Assembly (NCBI RefSeq): GCF_023703085.1
Contig: NZ_JAMQJY010000001.1
Span: 868,001-932,000, forward strand
DNA length: 64,000 bases
Source: Alkalicoccobacillus plakortidis
Lineage (GTDB): Bacteria > Bacillota > Bacilli > Bacillales > Bacillaceae_D
Direction of reading: 5' to 3'
Both the position numbers and the translations under genes were made by a program. The notes beneath the pieces are model-generated. The model was not told the origin of the DNA, made no database searches, and saw only the letters and a list, made by a program, of their open reading frames with translations. Shown piece after piece: positions 4,492-64,000 of this stretch; the stretch's first letter is position 1; every line of letters begins with the position of its first letter.

Positions 4492-5899
4492 TTACATGAT
4501 ATGGATAGGAGATCCTAGTGCAACTTCAGCTGCTTCCATAGTGATTTCACCAAGTGTTGGATGTGCATGAATAGTAAGTGCGATGTCTTCTGCAGTCATA
4601 CCAGTTTCAATTGCAAGTCCTAACTCAGCAATCACGTCAGATGCGTTTACACCAGCAACCTGTGCTCCAATTAGTAATCCATCTTCTTTACGAGTGATAA
4701 GCTTCATGAAGCCTTCAGTATCATTAAGAGATAGAGCACGTCCGTTGGCAGCGTAAGGGAACTTAGATGCTTTTACATCGTAGCCAGCTTCTTTTGCTTC
4801 TGCTTCTGTGTAACCAACTGTTGCAAGCTCTGGATCAGAGAAACAAACAGCAGGAATACCTAGATAGTCGATCTCAGACTTTTCGCCAGAGATTACTTCT
4901 GCAGCCACTTTACCTTCATAAGAAGCTTTGTGAGCAAGTGCAGGACCTTCTACGATATCACCAATAGCAAAGATGTTCTTAACACTTGTACGAGTTTGCT
5001 TATCGATTTTGATTAGACCACGGTCTGTCATTTCGATACCAATTGCTTCAAGTCCAAGCTCTTCTGTGTTGGCTTTTCGGCCAACTGTAACCAATAGGTA
5101 ATCAGCATCAATTACTTGCTCTTCCCCTTTGATTTCAGCTTTTACTTTTACGCCATCAGCAGACTCTTCAACTCCAAGTGCTTTCGCATCTGTGTGAATC
5201 GTTACGTTGTTCTTCTTCAAGCGTTTTTCAACTAACTTGGCCATTTGCTTCTCGAATCCAGGAAGAATTTGCTTCGCCCCTTCAACAATAACTACTTCAG
5301 CACCAAGATTTGAATAAGCACCAGCTAACTCAACGCCGATGTATCCACCACCGATTACAACCATTTTCTTAGGTACTTCTTTAAGAGCAAGAGCACCTGT
5401 AGAACTGATTACACGATCAGTAAATTTGAAAGATGGAAGTTCAATCGGGCTTGAACCTGTAGCGATGATGCAGTTCTTAAATTTGTATGTTGTCGCGCTG
5501 TTTTCATCAGCAACTTTAACTGTATCTTCAGAAGAGAAATAAGCTTCTCCTTGAACATAATCAATTTTGTTCCCTTTGAAAAGGCCTTTAACTCCACCAG
5601 TTAGTTTATCAACAACTGATGATTTCCATTCTTGAACTTTTTCGAAGTTAACAGTAACATTTTCTGCTACAATTCCGATATCGTCAGAATGTTGAGCCGT
5701 GTGGAACTTGTGTCCAAGCTGAGATAAGAGCTTTTGAAGGAATACAACCTACGTTTAAGCAAACTCCACCGATTGTCCCTTTTTCTACAACTGTTACTTT
5801 CTGTCCAAGCTGAGCAGCACGAATTGCTGCTACATAACCTCCTGGACCTGAACCAATGATTAGTGTATCTACTTCGTTAGCGAAATCTCCTACAACCAT
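4492..5899 (-). CDS. pdhD: Dihydrolipoyl dehydrogenase E3, with one frameshift
   Basis: E3 of the pyruvate dehydrogenase complex: reoxidises dihydrolipoamide using FAD and passes electrons to NAD+. N-terminal FAD motif GSGPGG, then the redox disulfide [13 protein letters not shown], the second nucleotide motif [11 protein letters not shown], and the dimerisation domain with HAHPTLGE near the C-terminus. About 468 residues once the frame is mended, the usual length. The reading frame breaks after codon ~61 at 5714-5719: the plus strand reads CCAAGC where CCAGC restores [10 protein letters not shown] and everything downstream. One base too many at the motif described in the findings; I treat it as a sequencing error. 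Last gene of pdhABCD; its ATG lies 5 bases after the pdhC stop. Confidence 0.92.
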
Positions 5900-5903
5900 T
5901 TGT

Positions 5904-7194
5904 TTAACCCTCCATTAAAAGTAATTGCGGATCGTTTAACAAGCGTTTTACATGATTGACTGCGTTTTGTGCTGTTACTCCATCAATTAGACGGTGGTCA
6001 TAACTGAATGATAGTGCAAGCATTGTTGCCACAACAATCTCCCCGTTTTTCACAACTGCTTTGTCTTCAATACGGCCAATACCTAGAATAGCTACTTCCG
6101 GATGGTTGATTACTGGTGTGAACCACTGTCCACGAGCTGAACCAAGGTTAGAGATCGTGATTGATCCGCCTTTCATTTCAGCGCCAGAAAGTTTACCATC
6201 ACGTGCTTTAACAGCTAGATCATTGATGTCATCAGCAAGCTCATAGATAGACTTACGATCAGCATTTTTCACAACTGGTACAACAAGCCCTTGCTCTGTA
6301 TCAGCAGCGATTCCGATATTGAAGTACTTCTTGTAAACAATCTCTTGTGCATCGTCATCAATAGAAGCATTAAGTGCTGGATACTTTTTGATAGCTGATG
6401 TTAAAGCTTTTACAACGTAAGGAAGGTACGTAAGCTTTGTGCCTTGTTCAGCCGCTTGCTCTTTGTACTGCTTACGATGTGAAACAAGATTTGTTACTTC
6501 GATTTCATCCAAGTGAGTTACGTGTGGAGCAGTGTGCTTGGAGTTAACCATTGCTTTAGCAATAGCCTTACGAATTCCTTTAAGTGGAACACGCTCTTCA
6601 AGCTCTTCAGAAGATGCAGCTTGGAGCAGGTGTAGATGCAGAAGAAGTTGCTTTTTCTTCTTTCTCTTCAGATGCTTCTGTAGTTGCTGATGGTTGATCA
6701 CCAGACAGATACGCTTCAATGTCTTCTTTAAGAACTCGTCCGTTTTTACCAGAACCACTTACAGCTTGGATTTTAACGTCTTTCTCACGAGCAAATTTAC
6801 GCACAGAAGGCATAGCGATCACACGACTGTCATCGTTGCTATCTTCTGACTTAGCTTCTTTTGAAGTATCTGCAGATTTCTCTTCTTTAGAAGATGACTC
6901 TTCCTTAGAAGTTTCCTCTTTAGACTCTTCTTCTTTTGAAGGTGCAGCATCGCCAGAACCGTCATCAATTGTTAGGATAACATCTCCAACAACACTAACC
7001 GTTCCTTCTTCAACTTTTACTTCAATGATCTTACCGTCAACTGGAGAAGGAAGTTCAACAACAGATTTGTCGTTTTGTACTTCTAAAAGGATATCATCCT
7101 CTTTTACTTCGTCTCCTGCTTTTACAAACCACTTTACGATTTCACCTTCGTGGATACCTTCTCCCACTTCCGGAAGTTTATATTCATATGCCAA
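5904..7194 (-). CDS. pdhC: Dihydrolipoyllysine acetyltransferase E2, with one frameshift
   Basis: Core E2 of pyruvate dehydrogenase: moves the acetyl group from lipoamide to CoA. Domains: lipoyl domain (about 1-78, lipoyl lysine in [10 protein letters not shown]), a Glu/Ser/Lys-rich linker (about 80-118), the E1/E3-binding domain ([12 protein letters not shown]...NGRVLKEDI), a second linker, and the catalytic domain ending with SYDHRLIDG. The TTG at 7194 is preferred over the one at 7200 because AAGGAGG is then 9 bases upstream. The frame breaks at 6619-6624, where GCTTGG should be GCTGG; mending it joins STPAP to [10 protein letters not shown]. The ~150-bp gap to pdhB contains an imperfect long inverted repeat (AAAGGAAACGA near 7309-7321 against TCGTTCTTTCC near 7240-7252), so E2/E3 might be processed or expressed separately (inference). 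Confidence 0.92.
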
Positions 7195-7352
7195 GCTCAA
7201 GCGCCTCCTTCATTATACCTTGATTTCTGTTCGTGTAAAAGGAAAGAACGACACCAAGTGACAGATATTCGACATGTACAACATAGACAAATGCCTTATC
7301 ACAAGGTTTCGTTTCCTTTTTTGCTAAGAGCCTTACTATTTAATTCATTTAA

Positions 7353-61987: not shown

Positions 61988-62007
61988 CAGAAGAAACGGA
62001 GGACGTT

Positions 62008-62556
62008 ATGAATAAGGCGTTGATAAATATTGATTACACAGTTGATTTTGTTGATACAAATGGGAAACTAACTTGCGGAAAACCTGGTCAAGACATTGAA
62101 AAAGAAATAGTGAAAGTTACTAAGGACTTTCTTAAAGATCAATCTTATGTTGTTTTTGCGATTGATCTCCATAAGGAAAACGATCAAATGCATCCAGAGT
62201 TTAATCTATTTCCACCGCACAATCTAGAAGGTACTAAGGGTAGATTCCTTTTTGGAGAATTACATGAATTGTACCAAGAACATAAGGACTCCTCCCTCAC
62301 CTACTGGTTAGATAAAACAAGATATAGCGCTTTTGCAGGTACGGATCTCGAAATGAAATTAAGAGAAAGAAAGATCACTGAGATTCATTTGATTGGGGTA
62401 TGTACAGACATATGCATCTTACACACCGCAATCGATGCTTACAATAAAGGCTTCAAGATCGTGATTCATCAACATGCAGTAGCTAGTTTTAATGCAGAAG
62501 GACACAAATGGGCACTCGGACATTTCGAAAATTCTCTTGGAGCAACACTCGTTTAA
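62008..62556 (+). CDS. pncA: Nicotinamidase
   Basis: Isochorismatase-fold amidase that converts nicotinamide to nicotinate. 182 residues, ATG with CGGAGGAC upstream. Catalytic residues: aspartate in LINIDYTVDF (Asp9), lysine in KTRYSAF, and cysteine in IGVCTDICILHT; metal-binding aspartate and histidine in AIDLHKEN. It feeds PncB, encoded next (29-base gap). Confidence 0.92.
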   Translation: MNKALINIDYTVDFVDTNGKLTCGKPGQDIEKEIVKVTKDFLKDQSYVVFAIDLHKENDQMHPEFNLFPPHNLEGTKGRFLFGELHELYQEHKDSSLTYWLDKTRYSAFAGTDLEMKLRERKITEIHLIGVCTDICILHTAIDAYNKGFKIVIHQHAVASFNAEGHKWALGHFENSLGATLV

Positions 62557-62584
62557 AAAAACATTACATTTGGAGGAAAACACA

Positions 62585-64000
62585 ATGACTAACACTTACT
62601 CAGACGATAGTTTCATGCTGCACACGGATTTGTATCAGATTAATATGGCCCAAACATATTGGAACGATGGATTAGAAAATAAGAAATCAGTGTTCGAGCT
62701 TTTCTTTAGAAAGCTACCTTTCGGAAATGGATACGCTGTGTACGCTGGACTTGAAAGAGTCATCGAATTTTTAAACAACTTTGGTTTTACTGAAAGTGAC
62801 ATTAGCTACCTTCGAGAGTTAGGATATGAAGAAGACTATCTTGATTTCCTGAGCGGCCTTACATTCACTGGGACCGTCAAAAGTATGAAAGAAGGAGAAT
62901 TGGTATTCGGTAATGAACCAATCTTACGTATCGAAGCTCCATTAATTGAAGCTCAATTAATCGAAACACCCTTATTAAATATCATCAATTATCAAACGTT
63001 AATTGCTACAAAGGCTTCAAGAATCAAACAACTTATCGGTGATGATCGGGCTATGGAATTTGGAACCCGCCGTGCTCAAGAAATGGATGCAGCTATTTGG
63101 GGAACAAGAGCCGCTTATTTGGGTTGGATTTGATGCAACCTCCAATGTTCGCGCTGGAAAGAAATTTGGAATTCCTGTAGCCGGTACTCATGCACACTCA
63201 CTGGTTCAAGCTTATAGAGACGAGTACACAGCGTTTAAAAAATATGCGTCAACCCACAAAGATTGCACCTTCTTGGTTGACACGTATGACACACTGAAAT
63301 CTGGTGTTCCAAATGCCATCAAAGTGGCAAACGAAGAGAAAGAAACGATCCATTTTAAAGGCATTCGATTAGATAGCGGAGATTTAGCTTACCTATCTAA
63401 GGAAGCTAGAAAAATGCTAGATGAAGCGGGTTATACCGATGCAGCCATTTCTGCTTCAAATGACCTTGATGAAGAAACGATTATGAATTTAAAATCACAA
63501 GGAGCAAAAATTGATGTTTGGGGTATAGGAACGAAACTTATTACAGCGTATGATCAGCCTGCTTTAGGCGCAGTTTATAAGCTTGTTTCAATCGAAGAAG
63601 ATGGAGAAATGGTTGATACGATTAAAATAAGCGCAAACCCAGAGAAAGTATCAACACCTGGACTTAAAAGAGTCTTCCGCATCATCAATAACAGAAACGG
63701 TAAATCAGAAGGAGATTATATCGCGTTAGATACTGAAGAGCCGAATGAAGAAAAACAATTAACGATGTTCCACCCTGTTCATACCTTTGTAAAAAAAGTT
63801 GTGACAGATTATGAGGCTGTTGAGCTACATCACATCATTTTCGATAACGGAGAATGCGTCTATACTCAACCTAGCCTAGAAGAGATTAGATCATTTGTTA
63901 CGTCTAACCTACAGCTTCTATGGGATGAATATAAACGATTGGTCATGCCAGAAGAATATCCTGTAGATCTTAGTCAACTATGTTGGGATAACAAAATGGC
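62585..64000 (+). CDS. pncB: Nicotinate phosphoribosyltransferase, one frameshift, 3' end outside window
   Basis: Makes nicotinate mononucleotide from nicotinate and PRPP, completing the Preiss-Handler entry to NAD. ATG 62585 has GGAGG 8 bases upstream. Visible motifs: LHTDLYQINMAQTYW, EFGTRRAQEMDAA, IRLDSGDLAYLS and the SNDLDE region. About 471 codons are seen and the gene is still open at the window end. The frame breaks at 63122-63127, where GGTTGG should be GGTGG; mending gives AAYLGGFDATSNVRAGKKFG. The context is GGTGG, a close relative of the GCTGG sites elsewhere. Confidence 0.92.

Follow-up and report, generated by a model that had tools for sequence, protein, structure and literature searches.

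A 64,000-nucleotide stretch of the Alkalicoccobacillus plakortidis genome (hereafter, the window) contains many genes whose reading frames appear broken, and these frame breaks are very probably long-read consensus errors at the pentamer GCTGG, or CCAGC on the other strand, that affect dozens of apparently broken genes. The window corresponds to G000:C1:868001-932000, where G000 denotes the source genome of 4.37 Mb in nine contigs. The original prediction, made from the sequence alone, listed 19 frameshifts here and attributed almost all of them to a partial, context-specific failure of base calling at GCTGG, for example at a methylated base. That the error is context specific and partial is well supported, as gained bases, lost bases, and C-to-T changes all fall on this one motif, in all phases and orientations, and copies of the ribosomal RNA (rRNA) genes within the same genome disagree at it.

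Frame breaks concentrate on GCTGG

To locate frame breaks independently, we performed a frameshift-tolerant codon alignment of 642 open reading frames from two genomes of the same genus, G002 and G003, against 464 kb of G000 consisting of the window and 400 kb around it. Alkalicoccobacillus belongs to the Bacillaceae, and the closest named relatives in one scan with one intact protein were A. gibsonii (98%) and A. porphyridii (97%); four congeneric genomes (G001–G004) served for comparison. The alignment covered 337 kb of coding DNA, 34 kb of it in the window. A break was kept only if, on each flank, at least five of up to 10 residues were identical; this filter reduced 224 frame changes to 192 well-flanked ones and 112 distinct breaks, 79 of which were found with both references.

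Among these 79, 52 of the 61 +1 breaks lie on GCTTGG/CCAAGC, a hexamer expected at 0.55% of random coding places, and eight of the 17 −1 breaks lie on GCTG/CAGC, where chance predicts 5.6%; the remaining break is of neither size. Counted from the motif instead, 26 of 436 CCAGC/GCTGG places are hit by a break relative to G002 (27.8-fold, p = 5e-29) and 28 of 505 relative to G003 (25-fold, p = 8e-30), and with either reference the pentamer ranks first among those with at least three hits. The phrase "almost every" of the original prediction proved slightly strong: by a strict rule, the motif accounts for 11 of the 16 breaks that the alignment found in the window, for 60 of 79 over the 464 kb with both references, and for 71 of 112 with one or both. 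Of the nine window breaks found with both references, eight are on the motif by this rule, and the ninth, at 35766, has a GCTG ending at 35762.

The features of the window are as follows, with the gene names assigned in the original prediction.

5714..5719, minus strand: pdhD frame break (+1) at CCAAGC, both references
6619..6624, minus strand: pdhC frame break (+1) at GCTTGG, both references
8983..8988, minus strand: pdhA frame break (+1) at CCAAGC, both references
11412..11417, plus strand: def frame break (+1) at GCTTGG, both references
13125..13130, plus strand: rnjA frame break (+1) at GCTTGG, both references
23700..23705, minus strand: mscS-like gene frame break (+1) at GCTTGG, both references
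30277..31214, plus strand: ABC-transporter (lnrL-like) gene broken in frame, from a two-frame tblastn match of the G004 ortholog
34750..34754, minus strand: truA frame break (−1), CAGC at 34752-34755, both references
35106..35111, minus strand: truA frame break (+1) at CCAAGC, both references
35759..35767, minus strand: amidase gene frame break (−1) at 35766-35767, GCTG at 35759-35762, both references
36840..37731, minus strand: aadK-like gene, frame broken near 37521, one reference
39887..41353, minus strand: secreted-protein gene split over three overlapping frame pieces, with the motif at 40528, 41035, and 41325
42506..43866, minus strand: MFS transporter split over two frame pieces, from Pfam pieces, with CAGC at 43333
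45031..45035, minus strand: kinase-like gene frame break (−1) adjoining CAGC, one reference
46639..46644, minus strand: sulP-like gene frame break (+1) at CCAAGC, one reference
49640..50999, plus strand: histidine kinase in two frame pieces (HAMP and HisKA; HATPase_c), GCTTGG at 50629-50634
63122..63127, plus strand: pncB frame break (+1) near GGTTGG, a close variant of the motif, one reference
732..736, plus strand: intact GCTGG copy, from the sequence
2810..2814, plus strand: intact GCTGG copy, from the sequence

The alignment recovered 13 of the 19 frameshifts originally listed (pdhD, pdhC, pdhA, def, rnjA, mscS, both in truA, amidase, aadK, kinase-like, sulP, and pncB). BLAST searches with the relatives' sequences likewise showed genes divided between two frames. 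Two more, in the MFS gene and in the histidine kinase, are backed by Pfam pieces: HisKA and HATPase_c lie in successive frames of the kinase, and the MFS gene gives two pieces of MFS type, of which one scores below the curated cut-off. No orthologs of this kinase (50629), of the MFS gene, or of the secreted-protein gene with its three places were found in the relatives' stretches. The places described as carrying an extra base hold GCTTGG/CCAAGC exactly as positioned in 11 of 12 cases, with the mscS coordinates off by one; those described as missing a base have GCTG/CAGC within eight bases in five of six cases. The sixth, the lnrL-like break placed at 30407, has no motif there, and the two-frame match of a single G004 ortholog is all that speaks for it. 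The two intact copies are present as described, so the failure is indeed partial, and the window as a whole holds 58 intact GCTGG/CCAGC words and 56 GCTTGG/CCAAGC words. The alignment also reported frame changes near 10499, 27573, and 57965 that are absent from the original list, with one reference each; the first two are near gene starts and may reflect start-site differences.

The same motif carries C-to-T substitutions

A third class of error became apparent at the same word, a tendency for the C of G-C-TGG to be called as T. At places where GCTGG is conserved in both G002 and G003, G000 has GTTGG in seven of the 48 places at which the change is nonsynonymous, as compared with five of 923 at other NCTGN words and 83 of 15,515 over all other contexts, placing GCTGG first among 113 contexts. 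The other cytosines of CCAGC have C-to-T in 0, 0, and one of 119. Since such substitutions break no frame, they are invisible to a reading of frames. Genuine decay of methylcytosine would affect this base too and, at any single site, would be indistinguishable from misreading of C as T.

rRNA copies of one genome disagree at GCTGG

The rRNA genes permit the strongest test, a comparison within the genome itself for which no relative is required. Relative to the eight G003 copies, the seven full 23S copies of G000 have 12 fixed differences in common; only four columns vary among the seven, and all four lie in GCTGG. This count was restricted to columns at which the eight G003 copies agree, and repeating it without that condition returned the same four. 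In total, six of 49 site-copies deviate (GCTG in four, GCTTGG in two), in copies located on contigs C1, C2, and C5. The 23S comparison omits an eighth, broken copy on contig C8 (G000:C8:65684-68312), which matches G003 in two pieces at ≈95 to 96% identity by BLAST and is either broken or of poor quality.

In 16S, for which the C8 copy was kept, six of the 12 copy-variable columns among eight copies are in the motif, corresponding to seven of 48 site-copies (p = 3e-8; the non-conserved site 200 is excluded from the 48). Three of the seven come from the C8 copy, whose deviations include sites in what we take to be the 530 loop and the 3′ end; without this copy, the motif holds three of nine variable columns and four of 42 site-copies (p = 5e-4). 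Overall, four of eight 16S and five of seven full 23S copies deviate at the motif. The combined rate of 13 in 97 site-copies (10 in 91 when the C8 copy is excluded) resembles that in coding DNA, where 61 sites failed and 380 are intact.

These data bear directly on whether the breaks could be real, either as widespread pseudogenes or as programmed frameshifts that the cell reads through. The breaks are, after all, present in the assembled sequence, and a further 202 occurrences of GCTTGG/CCAAGC in aligned coding DNA come with no break. Against this, basic genes are affected, substitutions as well as indels fall on GCTGG, and the rRNA copies disagree there. At the +1 breaks, moreover, the motif occurs in all three phases in the sense orientation (18, 12, and 12) and in the antisense orientation (14, 1, and 4), and thus on the template strand in 19 of 61 cases, which disfavors read-through by recoding. 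We therefore reject both real pseudogenes and recoding, whose probability we regard as negligible. Because the motif appears in every phase and orientation and the genome's own rRNA copies differ at it, the breaks are well supported as artifacts, and the failure of base calling at GCTGG proposed in the original prediction is borne out.

Word counts without alignment

Comparison of word frequencies, which requires no alignment, leads to the same pentamer. Relative to G002 and G003, CCAGC/GCTGG is the most depleted pentamer in G000, with 455 occurrences in 464 kb as opposed to 612 in 435 kb and 687 in 480 kb of the two relatives, and CCAAGC/GCTTGG is fourth among the enriched hexamers (351 versus 206 and 276; ratio 1.44). 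This imbalance is partly one of composition, because gene content differs between the genomes. The observed/expected value of GCTGG under a Markov model is 0.74 in G000 and 0.94 to 1.00 in G001–G004, and the ratio of GCTTGG to GCTGG is 0.77 as compared with 0.34 to 0.46 in the four relatives. Over the whole of G000, GCTTGG occurs 3178 times and its reversed control 1101 times. The resulting ratio of 2.89 is the highest of 41 family genomes and exceeds the 1.89 to 2.31 of the genus mates, but it is not diagnostic by itself across genera, since some genomes of other genera reach ≈2.5 to 2.6. Scaled by the reversed-control pattern in four genus mates, the excess amounts to ≈930 GCTTGG words.

A modified base in native DNA as the probable cause

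Word-specific C-to-T changes together with gained and lost bases suggest nanopore sequencing of native DNA in which a cytosine is modified. The assembly would derive from long reads, most probably nanopore reads alone, and a base within GCTGG/CCAGC would be chemically modified in this strain, the likeliest being the C of G-C-TGG as 5-methylcytosine (m5C). A base caller not trained on modified GCTGG would then produce consensus errors at this word, partially (at ≈one site in seven), by gaining a base, losing a base, or reading C as T. We have high confidence in this account as a whole, that is, in nanopore consensus errors caused by a modified base in GCTGG/CCAGC.

There is a precedent for such errors. 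In Listeria monocytogenes ST1081 strain R20-0026, modification-mediated nanopore errors were reported that are centered on GCTGG (CCAGC), with the mechanism left open (PMC10687267). These errors were specific to one lineage; of 12 strains sequenced on one platform, seven gave high quality, and the affected genomes improved after amplification (PMC10687267). The shared pentamer, on both strands in each case, makes a modified base, as the original prediction had suggested, the probable cause in G000 as well. In Listeria the enzyme was left open (PMC10687267), whereas a candidate restriction-modification cassette can be named in G000 (see below).

Several observations weigh against this reading. 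The Listeria errors are reported, for R9.4 data, as mismatches, with indels not their source (PMC10687267), whereas G000 shows gains, losses, and C-to-T changes. By the strict rule, 19 of the 79 two-reference breaks are off the motif; eight of these are near CCAG/CTGG and seven near homopolymers of at least four, with one in both groups. Synonymous C-to-T changes at the motif are not significantly raised (eight of 17 versus 56 of 189, p = 0.11). In 16S, six of the 12 variable columns are outside the motif, which may be true variation among operons, and some deviations within it go beyond the three main forms, with three copies reading GCTTG and the C8 copy reading CCAGG and GTCGG. Finally, failure depends on the flanks: failing sites are enriched for G or C immediately before GCTGG and for A or G immediately after it, and this could also be plain base-caller weakness. 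A search of the flanks for a longer motif showed the clearest differences at the two adjacent bases, with no fixed letter. Separately, the off-motif 16S columns are alignment positions 3, 182, 191, 192, 478, and 482, and CCTGG-like words may constitute a weaker second error context.

A context error of an old or fast base-calling model, at GCTGG but with no modified base, would account for this partial, flank-dependent failure and for the errors at other CCAG/CTGG words and homopolymers. It fits poorly with the Listeria case, in which the errors are tied to one lineage, same-platform strains sequenced well, and amplification helped (PMC10687267), and it would leave aside a pair of cytosine methyltransferases that is present in G000 and not found in its four genus mates. 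We consider such an error unlikely.

We regard it as very improbable that the errors stem from N6-methyladenine at CC(A)GC, the mark produced by the Neisseria type III enzyme ModD1. We take ModD1 to be a member of PF01555. Profile searches of G000 returned no match to PF01555 or PF02086 and two places for PF07669, both below the cut-off; the single place for PF02384 (E = 8e-10), presumably YtxK-like, sits among housekeeping-looking genes. On the other side, the gained base may just as well be taken as an A next to that of CCAGC, and GTTGG is CCAAC on the opposite strand. The target of ModD1 is CC(m6A)GC (PMC13248616), the same word as in G000, with adenine methylated there and the PF01555 family without a match here.

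A tandem methyltransferase cassette as candidate writer

If a modification is responsible, the original prediction reasoned, the strain may carry a methyltransferase with a GCTGG-like target. A search of the genome now supplies a candidate. The C5 cytosine methyltransferase family PF00145 occurs at four places in G000, two of them adjacent, at one place in G001, and at none in G002, G003, or G004. The adjacent pair belongs to a restriction-modification cassette:

G000:C1:2587875-2597107 (locus L188, 4875-14107, where L188 is G000:C1:2583001-2603000): restriction-modification cassette encoding a DUF2357 and PDDEXK_7 protein, an AAA protein, a 232-residue protein, two m5C methyltransferases, and an HNH protein

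The two methyltransferases, of 388 and 414 residues, are 28% identical to each other, and the longer has no match at E = 1e-120 in G001–G003. Both carry F.G.G, PCQ, ENV, Q.R.R, and GN.VP-type motifs, which we take to be the catalytic motifs of m5C methyltransferases. Searches of solved structures returned only general C5 methyltransferases. The McrC-like PD-(D/E)XK protein matches PF09823 and PF04411 over their cut-offs; the AAA protein matches AAA models below the Pfam cut-offs, no McrB-named family, and PADLOC PDC-M26A at 5e-46; and the HNH protein matches PF13391 and resembles, below the cut-off, the NCBIfam model for a phosphorothioate-DNA restriction endonuclease. Neighboring genes are presumably rlmH-like and htrA-like.

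Two adjacent m5C methyltransferases fit an asymmetric target. LlaJI, a system of the Lactococcus plasmid pNP40, has two m5C methyltransferases, an asymmetric five-base target, and a McrBC-like nuclease with McrB-like and McrC-like subunits (PMC1459862). The G000 cassette likewise has two m5C enzymes, together with an AAA protein and a DUF2357 and PD-(D/E)XK protein, of which the latter parallels the McrC-like subunit; it differs in adding the HNH and 232-residue proteins, in an AAA protein with no match to an McrB-named family, and in its proposed target, another asymmetric word (GCTGG/CCAGC) in place of GACGC/GCGTC (PMC1459862). On balance we favor, with modest confidence, this tandem pair as the writer, one enzyme acting on each strand; the link to GCTGG draws on which enzymes the genome encodes and on what an asymmetric target would require. 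The literature matches listed include no m5C enzyme with the target GCTGG/CCAGC.

Two tests lent this assignment no support. No GCTGG footprint was found in four other genomes that encode a homologue of the 414-residue enzyme (G525, G676, and G731, in which the pair was seen, and G283, in which only the 414-residue relative was seen), with observed/expected values of 0.98 to 1.12 in 100 to 120 kb each; this negative carries little weight, because these genomes may have been sequenced on other platforms. In addition, the pair genes of 11 loci show no avoidance of GCTGG (27 versus 27.8 in synonymous shuffles), and for this reason we do not use the absence of GCTGG from six cassette genes of G000 as evidence.

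The other two PF00145 genes of G000, a prophage enzyme at L189:9836-10897 and a frame-broken prophage gene at L190:9590-10264, provide a less probable source of the mark, which we judge to have a minor though real chance. Both match the family model, but the former has PPCS instead of PPCQ and does not show the last motif in its usual form, and the latter has a 224-residue frame that matches only positions 1 to 169 of 324. Furthermore, a single enzyme with an asymmetric five-base target would leave the second strand unmarked. Both genes are, by sight, in apparent prophages, and the short frame at L190 has a CCAAGC inside.

Relatives of the tandem pair

Relatives of the 414-residue enzyme at E = 1e-120 occur in seven of 398 genomes of a class-level sample and in 10 of 397 of an order-level sample, G000 included. 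Of ten further loci, nine have the two genes side by side and one (G593) has them fused. The accompanying nucleases vary: by sequence, five loci have an NgoFVII-type PLD protein (Pfam-confirmed in three), one has an HNH match, and two have a McrBC-like triad. The Lactococcus plasmid p275D (NZ_CP016702.1) carries a homologous adjacent pair, 66% and 57% identical, although its nuclease is of the NgoFVII family (PLD) and neither HNH nor McrBC-like. No close phage relative of the 414-residue enzyme was found in the collection searched (best, 49%).

At the fused locus (L218, 8438-10810), both methyltransferases lie in one 790-residue frame beside what by sight is an NgoFVII-type-looking protein. 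Genes for Vsr mismatch endonucleases (PF03852) lie at L210 (6236-6670) and L211 (6509-6994), close to the tandem pair and to another, divergent gene that resembles an m5C methyltransferase.

Tentatively, these loci may represent a mobile restriction-modification family built on one tandem m5C pair with exchangeable nucleases, which would protect GCTGG/CCAGC with one enzyme per strand and would also be the missing writer behind the GCTGG error signature.

Implications

The breaks in this genome amount to a systematic artifact, with base modification at GCTGG as its probable cause: a known kind of error in a new genus, accompanied by a candidate enzyme. Extrapolated from 79 to 112 breaks per 337 kb of aligned coding DNA, there would be about a thousand or more apparent breaks genome wide, and claims of gene loss drawn from G000 are therefore unsafe. 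The comparison of rRNA copies requires no reads and no reference strain, and it could serve to detect such genomes in public collections. A candidate writer can now be named for a motif whose mechanism stayed open in Listeria (PMC10687267). If this assignment is true, the activity of the pair would be readable from unpolished nanopore assemblies, even from disagreement among rRNA copies.

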